A stretch of DNA of 64,000 nucleotides, from contig JBBDNB010000039.1 of the NCBI GenBank assembly GCA_040877935.1, positions 62,001 to 126,000 of the forward strand. The letters run 5' to 3'. Source of the stretch: Chitinophagales bacterium (GTDB lineage Bacteria; Bacteroidota; Bacteroidia; Chitinophagales; CAIOSU01). The position numbers and the translations under genes are program-made. Below the pieces are notes generated by a model, which saw only the letters and a program-made list of their open reading frames with translations, did no database searches and was not told the origin of the DNA. Below, piece after piece: positions 1,664 through 42,387 of the stretch; position 1 is the first letter of the stretch, and each line of letters begins with the position of its first letter.

Positions 1664-3187
<1,524 letters not shown>

Positions 3188-8414: not shown

Positions 8415-9857
8415 ATGTCAGCTTACGAATCACCTATAAGAGAGCCCCTGATTAAAGGGGACAAAAACTACAAACAAATCACCACGGATGTAGTGCGATC
8501 TACCGAAGGTATGCCACCGGTGAGTTGGCTTATAGCCATCAGTATTTCAGGCACATTCGCTGCACTGTTTGGTATATGTGTGATCTATACCGTCTGGAAA
8601 GGCATTGGTGTTTGGGGATTAAATAAAACAGTAGGCTGGGCCTGGGACATTACCAACTTTGTTTGGTGGGTAGGTATTGGTCACGCTGGAACATTGATTT
8701 CGGCTGTATTGTTGTTGTTTCGTCAGAAGTGGAGAACAGGCATCAACCGATCTGCTGAAGCCATGACTATTTTTGCTGTAATCTGTGCTGCTCAGTTTCC
8801 CGGAATTCACATGGGGCGTCCCTGGTTGGCATTCTTTATTTTCCCATACCCCAATACACGCGGACCGCTTTGGGTAAACTTTAACTCCCCATTACTTTGG
8901 GACGTTTTTGCGATTTCAACTTATTTGACCGTATCACTATTATTTTGGTATTCTGGCTTATTGCCCGATTTTGCGACAATTAGAGACCGCTCTAAATCAA
9001 AGATCAGAAAAGCCATATACAACGGACTTTCTTTTGGTTGGACAGGATCTGCTAAACACTGGCAAAGATTTGAATCATTGTCATTGGTACTGGCTGGCAT
9101 AGCCACACCACTTGTGCTTTCTGTACACACTATTGTAAGCTTTGACTTTGCCACCTCTGTTATTCCGGGCTGGCATACCACTATTTTTCCGCCCTATTTT
9201 GTTGCCGGAGCCATTTTCTCGGGTTTTGCAATGGTAGAAACATTGATGGTCATTACCAGGAAAGTGTTGAAACTGGAAGAATACATTACCATTGCCCATA
9301 TTGAATCGATGAACAAAATTATCCTGCTCACAGGCTCTATAGTTGGTGTGGCCTATATTACTGAGCTTTTTGTGGCCTGGTATTCAGGTTTTATTTACGA
9401 GCAATATGCATTCTACAATCGTGCGCTTGGTCCATATTGGTGGGCGTACTGGACCATGATGACTTGTAATGTCATAACACCTCAATTGTATTGGATTAAA
9501 AAATTCAGAAGAAGCATTGTTGTGACTTTCGTGCTTTCCATTTTCATCAATATAGGAATGTGGTTCGAGCGCTTTGTGATCATTGTAACTTCACTGCACC
9601 GCGATTACCTTCCATCAAGTTGGGCATATTACACGCCTACCTGGGTGGAGATCGGAATTTTCCTTGGAACGCTGGGTATATTCTTTACTTTGTTTTTGCT
9701 TTTCGCAAGAGCATTCCCGGTAATTGCAATTGCAGAAGTGAAATCAATTTTTAAAACATCAAGTGAAAATGCCAAGAAAAAAGCCGAAGCAAAATCCAAT
9801 GAAGGATTAGCTGGTGGTGGATCATTGGCAGGTGGCACTTATAGAGATAAAGAATAA
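8415..9857 (+). CDS. actC: Alternative complex III quinol-binding membrane subunit ActC (NrfD/PsrC family)
   Basis: 480 residues with about ten hydrophobic helices and the NrfD/PsrC-like pattern ([27 protein letters not shown] near the second and third helices; [21 protein letters not shown] late). This subunit is known to form the principal menaquinol-oxidising site of ACIII, next to ActB. The C-terminal tail after about residue 445 is polar, rich in Lys, Glu and Gly, and cytoplasmic. It lies 26 bases after actB, and actD starts 10 bases after its stop. Confidence 0.94.
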
Positions 9858-38251: not shown

Positions 38252-39478
38252 ATGAAAAAATTGTTTTTTATTATTGCTGCAATTGTGCTTCTGTCCGCTC
38301 AGCTACAGGCACAAACGGCTGAAGCTTATTACTCTCAAGGCTACAGTTATTCAGCTAAAGGAGATAAGCAAGCAGCTGTTGACAGCTATACCAAGGCCAT
38401 TCAAATTAATGGTAATTATAAAAAAGCATATGCTGAAAGAGGTATTCTCTACAGCAGCATGGGAGAAAAGGATAAAGCTTTGGATGATTTTTCAAAAGCA
38501 CTTAACATAGATCCTTCTTATGACTACGCCAGGCGCAATCGTGCAGCCATTTATATGGAAAGGGAAAAATTTGAAGCTGCAGTAAAAGATTATGATCAAT
38601 TGATACAACAAGACCCTCAGTTTTCATTTTATTACGATTTGCGGGGCGTGGCCAATTATAAAATAAACAGGAAGGAAGCAGCGTTGGCTGATTTTACCAA
38701 AGCTCTGGAAATCAGCCCCGACAATGAAGAGGTACAGGTAAAGCGCGCAAAACTTTTGCTGGAACTTGGAAAAGATGAAGAGGCCTATGAAATGCTTGCT
38801 AAAACGAATTACTCCAAAGAAAAACTTTCCAATGAAGCCAAATTACAACTTGGTCGCAGCAGCCGGAAAACAGGTGAATATGAAAGGGCAGTTTCCTACC
38901 TTGAAGATTTGGCAAAAAACAATTTCAAACCCGAGTACGTCAATCTTGAACTGGGTTTATGCTACCTGCACCTAAAACAATTTGAAAAAGCAATTCGGGC
39001 ACTTGACAATTGCCTGGCACACAATCCCAACAATGAGATTGCATTTATCAATAAAGCCAGTGCTGAATCGCAAAGCGGCAATTATGCAAAAGCAGCCGAT
39101 ACTTATACCACAATCCTTGATAAATTTGACAATAACCACTATCGAGCGCTGAATGGCAGGGCAATAGCCTATTATGCCATGGGTGAAGCAGAAATGGCTT
39201 GCTCAGACTGGGAAAAAGCAGCAGAATCTGGCGATCAAAATGCAAAAGACAACCTGGAAGAATACTGCTCAGAAGAGGCACTGCAAGCGGTAAAGCAGCA
39301 AGCAGTTACAAATGAAAAGGATACAATTGCCCCTGAGCAAGTAGAAGAAATTGAGCAGGAAGAAATAGAAGATTTGCCAGAAGAAGATGTTCAAGAGACA
39401 GAAATGGAAGAAGCGGAGGATGAGCAACCCAAAAAGGAAAAAAAGAAGAAATCTAAGAAGGAGAAGTTAGATGACTAA
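38252..39478 (+). CDS. Secreted TPR-repeat protein
   Basis: 408 residues: signal peptide (FFIIAAIVLLSAQLQAQ, cleavage near 21), then about nine tetratricopeptide repeats between 25 and 330, for example AVDSYTKAIQINGNYKKAYAE and ALDDFSKALNIDPSYDYARR. The C-terminal 75 residues are strongly acidic and then lysine-rich. TPR proteins are protein-protein scaffolds; no enzyme domain is present. Its stop codon overlaps the ATG of the following RHS-like fragment by eight bases. Confidence 0.88.
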   Translation: MKKLFFIIAAIVLLSAQLQAQTAEAYYSQGYSYSAKGDKQAAVDSYTKAIQINGNYKKAYAERGILYSSMGEKDKALDDFSKALNIDPSYDYARRNRAAIYMEREKFEAAVKDYDQLIQQDPQFSFYYDLRGVANYKINRKEAALADFTKALEISPDNEEVQVKRAKLLLELGKDEEAYEMLAKTNYSKEKLSNEAKLQLGRSSRKTGEYERAVSYLEDLAKNNFKPEYVNLELGLCYLHLKQFEKAIRALDNCLAHNPNNEIAFINKASAESQSGNYAKAADTYTTILDKFDNNHYRALNGRAIAYYAMGEAEMACSDWEKAAESGDQNAKDNLEEYCSEEALQAVKQQAVTNEKDTIAPEQVEEIEQEEIEDLPEEDVQETEMEEAEDEQPKKEKKKKSKKEKLDD

Positions 39479-40373
39479 GCGCCTGAACAATTCAAATATT
39501 ATTGTAGCTAATAATTACTATACAGGCGGGATGTTAATGCCCGGGAGGGTATTCTACGCCAATTCACCCTATCGCTTCGGCTACCAAGGCAGTGAGAGGG
39601 ACGATGAGATAGCCAAGGGGCTATACACCACGCACTTCAGGCAGATGGACACAAGGCTACTCAGGTGGTGGTCGATCGACCCCAAGACCGCATCGATGCC
39701 ATGGCAAAGTCCTTACATGACTATGGATGGTAATCCTATTGTCTTAGATGATAAAGATGGGGATTGTGCCACTTGCATAAGTGGGGCGATAGCTGGAGCG
39801 ATTACAGAGATTGTTGCTCAATTTGCCGTAGCTTTCTTTGTAGAAGGAAATGATGCAGAAACAGCCTTAAAAAATATAGTATGGGAGGATGTTGTTATCT
39901 CAACGGCTACAGGAGCAGTTTCTGGTGCATTTGATGGGGGAATGAGTAAATGGGCTTCTTTCTTTGCGAAATCCCGAAACAGGAAAGCACTTGAGATAAT
40001 GATAAAAGAAGGAGGGGATATTTTAATTGAAGGGATAAATAATACACTACAAGCTGCACTGAAAGATGATGAGATTGATGTTAAAGATGTCGTACAACAA
40101 ACCTTAGTGAGCTATGGAATAGGGAAAGCCTACAGTAGTAAAGTTAAAAATGCAGATTTAGGCAGTGGTAATAAGAAGGTTGAGATAGCTAATGCTAAGG
40201 ATAGGGCATCCCGTAAATCAGCAAGCCAAGAAACAAAGAACGAGTTTACTGAAAAAGGTAAGAAAGCGAGCAATGAATTTATACAGTTAAATGCGGCTGA
40301 AAGAGTTATTGATGGTGCTGTTCCTGCTTCAGCAGGAAAAATCGTAAATGAAGAAAGTAAAAATGAAGAATAA
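39471..40373 (+). CDS. Orphan RHS core-tip fragment (polymorphic toxin-like C-terminus)
   Basis: 300 residues. Residues 14-85 match the end of a Bacteroidota RHS core: YYTGGMLMPGR, YRFGYQGSERDDEIAKG, RLLRWWSIDP and PYMTMDGNPIVLDDKDGD. Normally over a thousand residues of YD-repeat shell precede this point; here the frame starts immediately before it, eight bases inside the TPR gene. The rest is a variable tip with a Gly/Ala-rich hydrophobic part (GAIAGAITEIVAQFAVAFFV) and a charged C-terminus without a recognisable nuclease motif. Base count for 39541-39720 is 56% G+C; the tip then drops to around 40% or below, the known core/tip contrast of RHS genes. It has no signal peptide. It is either a displaced tip cassette or a remnant. 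Confidence 0.7.
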   Translation: MTKRLNNSNIIVANNYYTGGMLMPGRVFYANSPYRFGYQGSERDDEIAKGLYTTHFRQMDTRLLRWWSIDPKTASMPWQSPYMTMDGNPIVLDDKDGDCATCISGAIAGAITEIVAQFAVAFFVEGNDAETALKNIVWEDVVISTATGAVSGAFDGGMSKWASFFAKSRNRKALEIMIKEGGDILIEGINNTLQAALKDDEIDVKDVVQQTLVSYGIGKAYSSKVKNADLGSGNKKVEIANAKDRASRKSASQETKNEFTEKGKKASNEFIQLNAAERVIDGAVPASAGKIVNEESKNEE

Positions 40374-40383
40374 AACACACGTT

Positions 40384-41043
40384 ATGAAATTAATTACATT
40401 AGTTATATTTTGTTTTTGTTACGCTGTTCAAGCCCAGGATTTCGAAGGGGTTGTAGTATATGAAATAGAAGCGTTAAACCCTAACCCTAAGATTATATCT
40501 GATAGCCTATGGAATGCAAAAATAGAAGAAGAGTATGGAAGTGACGGCAAGGCAAAACAAAGGTATTTCTATAAAAACCAAAATTATTTATCTGTAATGA
40601 CAGGGGGGCAGAAAAGAGGATATCAATTATATGATCCAGAAAATAAATTAATTTACTCTTGGGAAGAAGGTTCGGATACTGCAATAACAGTAGATAGTAG
40701 AGATTTCATTGATGAACTAATTGGGATTAAGAGTTTAGATAGAAAAGATACTATTTTGGGAATACCTACTGATATTGTATCAGTAAAGTCAAAATTTGGA
40801 GAAACAATAATATGGTATAATAGCAATTATTTAAAAATAGACCCCAAGCTTTACAAGGGGCATAAGTACGGTCATTGGTATCCTATTTTAGAAAAAACAA
40901 AAAGCCTGCCCTTAAAAATCGAAACCAAGAGTTTTATGACACACATGGTTCAAACTGCGGTTGATTATGAACAGAAGTCTATTGAGATAGATAAGTTCAA
41001 ATTGCCCTCTTTTAAATATGTAATGGCTAATCCAGTAAATTAA
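40384..41043 (+). CDS. Secreted protein, GLPGLI-like
   Basis: 219 residues from ATG 40384, with a clear signal peptide (KLITLVIFCFCYAVQAQ). In-frame ATGs at 40348 and 40363 would give a longer N-terminus overlapping the RHS fragment. The mature protein starts FEGVVVYEIEALNPNPK and contains strand-rich segments and a LGIPTDIVSVKSKFGETIIWY stretch. This resembles the GLPGLI/DUF4412-type family of periplasmic Bacteroidota proteins, of unknown function. Following an RHS tip it could be an immunity protein, but that family is also common on its own. Confidence 0.6.
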   Translation: MKLITLVIFCFCYAVQAQDFEGVVVYEIEALNPNPKIISDSLWNAKIEEEYGSDGKAKQRYFYKNQNYLSVMTGGQKRGYQLYDPENKLIYSWEEGSDTAITVDSRDFIDELIGIKSLDRKDTILGIPTDIVSVKSKFGETIIWYNSNYLKIDPKLYKGHKYGHWYPILEKTKSLPLKIETKSFMTHMVQTAVDYEQKSIEIDKFKLPSFKYVMANPVN

Positions 41044-41414
41044 TTTCTTCTGTCTAATATTAATAGGTATGCTATAAGAAATATTATAAATGGGAAAAAG
41101 TAAATAGGTATTTTTGAAGGCTCTTTATTCCAATAATATGAGTCATTTTCTGGAGAAAATAAGACTTTTATTCTTTGGCCTTTTATTAATGTTTTGCAGT
41201 TTCTCTTACTTGCCTTGACTGTATGTACTTCACCATTGTTTTTTACGTCAATTAAGCTAGTACCTGTTCTCCTACATCGAGTTTTATACACTTCAACACT
41301 TACAGTACTTCCATTATCAAAAGCCTTTTTTTGATAGTAATAATCATTACTTACGAAGTATATAATTAAAATAAACAGCAGAGCAGCTAATTTGAAAAAG
41401 TGCTTTTTCAGCAT
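41040..41414 (-). CDS. Small membrane protein, DUF3592-like
   Basis: 124 residues: a membrane helix (about 8-24), a strand-rich middle (VSVEVYKTRCRRTGTSLIDVKNNGEVHTVKA), then a second helix (about 102-119). Two helices flanking a small soluble domain with a GQRIKVLFSPEN turn is the DUF3592 layout. It is convergent with the GLPGLI-like gene, sharing four bases. Function is unknown. It is AT-rich like the RHS tip. Confidence 0.6.
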   Translation of the reverse strand: MLKKHFFKLAALLFILIIYFVSNDYYYQKKAFDNGSTVSVEVYKTRCRRTGTSLIDVKNNGEVHTVKASKRNCKTLIKGQRIKVLFSPENDSYYWNKEPSKIPIYFFPFIIFLIAYLLILDRRN

Positions 41415-41510: not shown

Positions 41511-41849
41511 TCAAATCATTTTAAGTTTGGCCGCCCTCAACAGGTTGTCCACGGTATAGAGCACGCATGTCTTGTCCTCCTCGGGCAGCGCCTCAATCTC
41601 CTGCCACCTTTTTAGCATAGCGGGATCTTTCATAAAACCTGCCTCCTTGTTCTCACCGAGCAGATACCCCACGGTAGTGCCGAGCAGGTTCGCCAGCTTC
41701 ACGGCAGCTTCAATGGAGGGCGTCATCTCCTGCCTCTCGTACTTGCCGATCACCGAATGCGAGGTGTTCAGGAGCTTAGCCAGTTCCTTTTGCGAGAGGT
41801 TTTTAGCCTTCCTGCACTCCGCCAGTTTTTTACCGAAATCCAATCCCAT
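41511..41849 (-). CDS. XRE-family DNA-binding protein
   Basis: 112 residues from ATG 41849; the frame extends upstream, but through the divergent promoter region. The helix-turn-helix is KNLSQKELAKLLNTSHSVIGKYERQEMTPSIEAAVKLANLLGTTVGYLLG (about residues 16-65), a classic Cro/C1 domain. The C-terminal part (WQEIEALPEEDKTCVLYTVDNLLRAAKLK) is a short helical dimerisation segment. The coding sequence is about 50% G+C, higher than most neighbours. It is divergent from a truncated gene, and the pair share a symmetric TAAGGTACT site, suggesting autoregulation. Confidence 0.82.
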   Translation of the reverse strand: MGLDFGKKLAECRKAKNLSQKELAKLLNTSHSVIGKYERQEMTPSIEAAVKLANLLGTTVGYLLGENKEAGFMKDPAMLKRWQEIEALPEEDKTCVLYTVDNLLRAAKLKMI

Positions 41850-41853
41850 GATA

Positions 41854-41988
41854 AGTACCTTAAAAGGGTCAGAACGACCGTGTTTTGTTAGTTTAACACA
41901 AATATAGGCATAGGAAAAGGTAACTAAAAATCCGATAGGCTTGTTTTGTTGAATTGGAAAATATACCTTTACACCCAATAAGGTACTG
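41854..41988. promoter_or_regulatory. Divergent promoter region with symmetric operator half-sites
   Basis: AAGTACCTTA at 41854-41863 and TAAGGTACT at 41979-41987 form an inverted pair, one beside each start codon of the divergent genes. A minus-strand -7 box (TATATTTG) covers 41899-41906. On the plus strand TTG at 41941-41943 is followed after 20 bases by TACCTTTA at 41964-41971. The sites may be XRE repressor operators; the AAGG core could also serve ribosome binding. Confidence 0.5.
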
Positions 41989-42003
41989 AAAAAATGTTTT
42001 TCT

Positions 42004-42300
42004 ATGTCAGCAAAGCAATTTAACCCGAGCAACCCCGAACAACTGATCTACCAGAACGAACTGCTAAGGCTCACGGTGCTGGGCGGCATCAAGCTGGAAG
42101 GCCTGGACAGGATGCGGGCTACCCTAAAAGTAGAGCTGAGGGACAGCAGCCGCCCACCGCTGCGCCACAACCTGGACCTCTACAACGATAACCAACTGGA
42201 AAAGCTCATCAGGAAAACGGCAGAAAGGCTGGAGATCGGCACGAGCGTAATCGCTGCCAGTCTATCGGAGCTCCCCGCTGGCGCGCATTTTGCAGCATAG
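42004..42300 (+). CDS. Truncated mobile-element-type protein, GC-rich
   Basis: 98 residues (MSAKQFNPSNPEQLIYQNELLRLTVLGGIKLEGLDRM). The sequence ends abruptly after an LSEL segment with PAGAHFAA. From memory, the first ~90 residues resemble the N-terminus of much longer Bacteroidota mobile-element replication proteins (RHNLDLYNDNQLEKLIRKTAERLEIGTSV), so this looks truncated. I could not verify this. The last 240 bases of the gene are 59% G+C by direct count, far above the rest of the window. It is divergent from the XRE gene, as in phage or conjugative-element modules. Whether a stable short protein is made is unknown. Confidence 0.5.
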   Translation: MSAKQFNPSNPEQLIYQNELLRLTVLGGIKLEGLDRMRATLKVELRDSSRPPLRHNLDLYNDNQLEKLIRKTAERLEIGTSVIAASLSELPAGAHFAA

Positions 42301-42387
42301 CCTGAAGCATAGCGAATGTCCGCCCGGCTGAGTCCTGCCCGAATGACTTTGTTCATGCGGGCATTCGGACGGGCGAGCCTATCAGGT
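42301..42387. repeat. GC-rich imperfect palindrome after the truncated gene
   Basis: TGCCCGAATGA-CTTTGT-TCATGCGGGCA at 42336-42363 is an 11-position stem with one mismatch. GTCCG/CGGAC and CCTGA/TCAGG arms lie further out. No T-tract follows, so it is more like element debris than a terminator. Confidence 0.4.

Follow-up and report, generated by a model that had tools for sequence, protein, structure and literature searches.

An intact open frame of 300 codons in the 64-kb window (the whole stretch of DNA that was analysed, 64,000 nucleotides of a 273-kb contig) consists of the final ~90 residues of an RHS core and a tip of ~200 residues, adjoined by candidate immunity genes; no RHS shell was detected in the genome. 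The tip belongs to a sequence family whose other members, on RHS frames in other genomes, are mostly followed by genes for membrane proteins. By analogy with a characterised RHS effector, the tip probably acts on membranes as an antibacterial toxin without enzymatic activity.

The RHS-associated core was recognized with NCBIfam model TIGR03696 over residues 32 to 97 (E 6.4e-8, with 33.0 bits scored and 32.5 required), and a profile built from the core matches of related genomes covered residues 9 to 98. The frame has neither an N-terminal delivery part nor a shell, and a family search of the genome found the core family once. The above-cut-off match, in a genome in which no shell was detected, agrees with the sequence-only reading, which had called the frame an orphan RHS core-tip fragment. 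The same reading had the frame begin eight bases inside the upstream TPR gene, and it does: the ATG at 39471 precedes the end of the TPR stop codon at 39478. Because the start overlaps the TPR stop and an AAGGAG motif lies 7 nt upstream, translational coupling to the TPR gene is possible. Fusion to the end of the TPR gene, as the arrangement had also been described, was ruled out because the frames differ and overlap by just 8 bases. The reported drop in G+C from core to tip was found (55.6% at 39541 to 39720 in the core and 38.8% in the tip). However, the mean of the window is 40.1% and the TPR gene has 40.4%, so that it is the GC-rich core that is the odd, foreign-looking part, whereas the tip resembles the genome.

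Table 1. Features of the orphan RHS locus (positions in the window)
Feature	Position	Strand	Basis
TPR-repeat gene, 408 aa; upstream neighbour, outside the cassette proper	38252..39478	+	ORF; TPR_1, E 3.4e-40
Orphan RHS core-tip frame, 300 aa, intact	39471..40373	+	ORF; TIGR03696 above cut-off; sole core-family match of the genome
RHS core end, residues ~9-98	39495..39764	+	Profile from relatives (residues 9-98); TIGR03696 (residues 32-97)
Tip, residues 99-300; hydrophobic Gly-rich part followed by Lys/Ala-rich end	39765..40370	+	Tip relatives, alignment A2; hydrophobic segment, residues 106-124
231-aa protein with signal-like start; immunity candidate by position	40348..41043	+	ORF; 26-base overlap with tip; one N-terminal hydrophobic segment
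124-aa two-TM protein with two conserved Cys; immunity candidate by family	41040..41414	-	ORF; two TM segments; profile E 6.1e-11; alignment A3

The source genome is a 4.03-Mb draft of 63 contigs that is 98.75% complete. A full-length RHS protein of 2573 aa from a genome of the same taxonomic family (P0001, from G002) was used as the query for the shell and matched the source genome at the orphan site only; neither this search nor that with the core family detected a piece of a shell, even a partial one. The search for full-length RHS genes that the sequence-only reading had proposed therefore detected none. For its suggestion that the frame could be a donor cassette for an RHS gene elsewhere, no acceptor was found in the genome. 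The only other RHS trace detected there (G000) was a truncated core remnant on C27 (39307 to 39462; L002, L075), a 40% match over query residues 8 to 57, and the gene adjoining it is one that we take, judged by eye, to be PorP/SprF-like. Close copies of the tip or of the TPR gene were not confirmed among the genome contigs searched with a method that detects close relatives only.

As a control, P0001 was run on 20 chosen genomes, mostly ones that were RHS positive with the orphan query. The shell was matched in eight (G002, G011, G038, G041, G108, G126, G138, and G147). In nine others the matches extended from residue 2118 on only, near the core end (G026, G029, G051, G056, G102, G105, G127, G129, and G131), and three had no match (G001, G003, and G023). 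G023 was matched by the orphan query, and thus P0001 misses some RHS genes. The core-end-only matches in nine control genomes, of which G051 is a single-contig genome, demonstrate that a lone core-tip piece is not peculiar to the source genome.

Core-tip frames were common in related genomes. The orphan query matched 48 of 148 other genomes at E ≤ 1e-5, in frames of 118 to 4754 codons, many of them of 280 to 450. For example, contig C13 of G002 carries both a full-length gene and an orphan, and contig C11 of the same genome has a second shell, 97% identical over residues 1 to 2240, behind which lie four core-tip frames; for each of them a small ORF begins between 4 nt behind and 29 nt inside the end of the frame. 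An ORF on the same strand started within 150 nt in 33 of the 36 core-tip frames in stretches that were examined in detail (long frames and the window orphan included, with one gene counted twice), and in 24 of the 36 this neighbouring ORF had a hydrophobic start. For comparison, 40 of 63 ORFs of 200 to 600 aa in the synteny stretches had a same-strand ORF within 150 nt, and 16 of the 63 a hydrophobic start. Since related genomes often have a core-tip frame that abuts a small gene, the orphan is a module of a known kind, an orphan rhs-CT, and its arrangement is ordinary. In G102, where an RHS core-tip frame stands alone, a short ORF at a distance of ~0.6 kb (L076, 3776 to 4330) presumably resembles a REP-associated tyrosine transposase.

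The tip has one clear hydrophobic segment. A search with it through 396 genomes of the order gave matches at 11 places in 10 other genomes at E ≤ 0.01. Three of the places were set aside as chance matches, two that were dehydratase-like by eye (L100 and L102) and one with a stop inside (L099). The remaining eight, as far as they extend, have two Gly-rich stretches, of which the first, hydrophobic and in most cases opened by CxxC, comes behind the core, followed in most by a Lys/Ala-rich end (alignment A2). When 395 genomes of the class were searched with a profile built on seven tips, 7 other genomes gave a match, one of them already in use; after the removal of L131, which had no core and a permease-like appearance, five new tips (L126 to L130) were available. 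The relatives sit on RHS frames, long and short, and their ends are variable, often Lys/Ala rich. In L095 the first part of the tip is shared but the end is different, nuclease-like by eye (VRR_NUC E 0.088, below cut-off), and the neighbouring gene product is soluble. The first part of the tip is thus at least partly a module shared between ends, and it may be a linker rather than the toxin.

The sequence-only reading had noted that the tip lacks a known toxin motif, and searches of Pfam, NCBIfam, PADLOC, and PHROGs assigned it to no toxin family: the orphan had no match in Pfam, PADLOC, and PHROGs, and NCBIfam gave the core alone. Pfam likewise gave no match above cut-off for the tips of the window, L093, L094, L095, L126, and L127. 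Among solved structures, a profile of the tip had no match to an RHS chain at E ≤ 1; what two profiles did match there, such as AcrF1 and a de novo helical protein, was taken as chance. Structure prediction of the orphan, proposed in the earlier reading along with profile searches of the tip, gave an unusable model from the single sequence (pLDDT 38). The proposal of a new toxin domain stands as far as the tip has relatives on RHS frames, mostly before membrane proteins; its toxicity we infer.

To describe the genes that follow the tips, 67 distinct tips were compared, with L131 and frames of fewer than 60 residues behind the core dropped. A neighbour was a same-strand ORF of at least 70 aa that started from 60 nt inside to 150 nt behind the tip end, and it was considered a membrane protein if it had at least two hydrophobic 17-residue segments or one beyond residue 40. 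A qualifying neighbour was present for 53 of the tips and lacking for 14. Membrane proteins followed 11 of the 15 tips of the orphan's family, which was defined by tip sequence, versus 2 of the 38 other RHS tips (p 1.2e-6), and 4 of the 5 tips at loci found after the pattern had been noticed (L126 to L130; p 5.8e-4), p-values that overstate the association because the tips share ancestry and some of the pattern had been noticed before the count. The 15 family tips include the window orphan as a negative; without it the count is 11 of 14. The 11 positive tips are spread over seven taxonomic families. Besides the window orphan, with its 231-aa neighbour, the negatives were L095, with a soluble neighbour, and L079 and L130, whose neighbours have one N-terminal segment each.

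The window locus is an exception to the membrane-neighbour pattern because the next gene after the orphan encodes a secreted-looking protein of 231 aa. Neither this gene nor the one beyond it (41040 to 41414) figures in the sequence-only reading, yet the two supply the greater share of the functional evidence. This protein had no family in Pfam, NCBIfam, PADLOC, or PHROGs, and its single-sequence structure prediction had a pLDDT of 37. Guilt by association gave nothing for it, as no RHS core was detected near its relatives at 18 places in 17 of 148 other genomes, with flanks searched up to 1.5 kb, shorter at contig ends.

Behind the 231-aa gene, overlapping it by 4 bases and inverted relative to the tip, is the gene for the 124-aa two-TM protein. 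Among 2068 ORFs, this protein was found by a profile of six relatives (E 4.7e-16) and again when the profile was restricted to the five members located behind RHS tips (L087, L093, L094, L096, and L098; E 6.1e-11). M1, G35, C47, C73, and G79 are common to seven aligned members (alignment A3). A relative picked up with the 124-aa protein in G220 is located 24 nt behind an RHS frame, and this frame had come up independently in the search with the tip. Among 10 other genomes matched, G220 alone had a core beside the relative, and a core was detected at none of the 7 new places of the class search. Thus, the two-TM family of the 124-aa protein is not RHS specific and also occurs away from RHS genes.

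The L092 and L127 tips resemble the window tip, and their two-TM neighbours were not linked to the 124-aa protein by profiles without the 124-aa protein as a member. The 124-aa protein and P0002, the two-TM neighbour of the L092 tip, had no meaningful match (BLASTP E 3.3), and the 124-aa protein in the window was missed by a profile that combined P0002 with the L127 neighbour. The L127 neighbour was in turn missed by a profile limited to RHS-adjacent proteins and was linked solely by profile A3, which includes the 124-aa protein (E 4.5e-5). The two-TM neighbours thus make up more than one sequence group. For the window tip, position would favour the 231-aa gene as the immunity gene, and family would favour the 124-aa gene.

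For a comparison of the site, twelve genomes were searched, of which eleven supplied the stretch that lies behind the DUF3467 gene; the contig of G008 ends there. The gene order of the window was absent from all eleven stretches, two of which extend just 1.3 and 5.3 kb behind the DUF3467 gene. One of the eleven, L064, has a TPR protein 3.7 kb away, part of which aligns at 28% identity.

Adjoining the islet, at 41511 to 42300, are an XRE/RstR-like repressor gene on the minus strand and a divergent 98-aa ORF of 56.6% G+C without a family match. These may be a mobile-element remnant. A repeat of ~50 nt, 80 to 95% alike between copies, occurs in at least three places in the genome: at 42275 to 42326 of the window, at 8546 to 8599 and 9278 to 9329 of L075 (on C27), and at 3124 to 3178 and 3664 to 3722 of L132 (on C14). 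One copy is beside the C27 RHS core remnant and one is ~0.9 kb to the right of the islet. The repeat is not specific to RHS, as it is also present in the C14 locus, which has no core-family match.

The chances are about even that the locus is a displaced orphan cassette with a membrane-acting tip, either kept with immunity genes, kept as recombination material, or decaying. On a full RHS protein the tip would be delivered into a neighbouring cell and would act at the membrane, and the producer would be protected by the membrane-embedded two-TM protein. With no visible deliverer at the window locus, it might serve as immunity that has been retained while the toxin is silent or coupled, it might be raw material for recombination, or its loss may be underway; membrane target, immunity gene, and present use we infer from relatives and arrangement. 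More tentatively, and with rather less than an even chance, the tip may represent an unnamed family of membrane-acting RHS toxins in Bacteroidota that have small membrane proteins as immunity partners, one group of them with two TM segments and a conserved Cys pair. The source genome would then keep one tip and one such two-TM protein, turned apart by inversion, without detectable delivery. In a simple possible history, suggested by core matches that face each other on short contigs in G038 and G148, there were two facing cassettes and one RHS end was later lost. If the pairing is true, it provides a handle on RHS tips that were left blank by the family libraries searched, that have no recognised enzyme, and that are matched with membrane proteins. 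The locus also adds a case in which the genome has an orphan cassette but no RHS shell that could be detected, which bears on whether such cassettes are reserves, defences, or leftovers.

A serious rival, although we consider it less likely, is that the frame is debris, an RHS piece left behind or copied in that is without effective expression or selection and has not yet been broken. The sequence-only reading had listed debris among its options, and the evidence is divided. All 300 codons are open, the length of the tip is near that of its relatives (205 versus 211 to 224 residues), and gene starts overlap at both ends of the orphan. Yet the best-scoring tip relative of the order search (L092 in G057; L078, 1264 to 2071) has its core and tip in overlapping different frames and is therefore broken or misassembled there. 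Decay would also be in keeping with the lack of a shell or acceptor in the genome, with the second, truncated core remnant on C27, and with the inversion of one type of RHS-tip neighbour. Two further explanations seem improbable. The orphan might be translated behind the TPR gene as a resident toxin-antitoxin-like module that acts inside the cell and is checked by a neighbour; the overlap of its start with the TPR stop and the upstream AAGGAG would suit this, and orphan Rhs toxins of Salmonella are reported, in the abstract of PMC7043789, to be active inside the producer. It is similarly doubtful that an intact RHS gene exists and is missing from the draft assembly. RHS genes of G002 are on contigs of 15 and 20 kb, and the source assembly is in 63 contigs, but its completeness is high and not even a partial shell piece was detected.

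In its arrangement, the displaced cassette that we favour resembles the orphan rhs-CT/rhsI and cdiA-CT/cdiI modules described in the abstract of PMC3150448, which likewise have a core end and a tip, no shell, and a small gene directly behind; in the window this gene is the 231-aa ORF. However, those modules, as described there, belong to loci with full-length genes, whereas no shell was detected in the genome of the window orphan. The cassette logic is also like that of the standalone toxin cassettes of polymorphic toxin systems treated in part of PMC3482391. The same part of that source describes non-enzymatic membrane tips, Tox-WTIP, to which the tip is likened by description; Tox-WTIP is a small two-helix domain said there to be restricted to proteobacteria, unlike the tip from Bacteroidota. 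DUF3592 (PF12158) was matched above cut-off by the neighbour of L079 and below cut-off by the neighbours of L130 and L093, whereas the 124-aa protein of the window had no match; a narrow literature search found no paper that joins DUF3592 with both a toxin and immunity. CDI ionophore toxins, in the description consulted from PMC11630599, have polymorphic ends that dissipate the membrane potential and very variable immunity proteins. They are likened to the tip by description, and they are borne on CdiA rather than on an RHS core.

A similar arrangement is that of Tse5 and Tsi5. According to the relevant passages of PMC9637101, Tse5 of Pseudomonas aeruginosa is an RHS effector whose end forms pores and depolarises cells; this end has no predicted enzyme, and the partner has two predicted TM regions. 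A tip without a recognised enzyme together with a two-TM partner has the Tse5/Tsi5 arrangement, and it is for this reason that a membrane-acting tip is proposed. The likeness is one of arrangement and working, not of membership by sequence.
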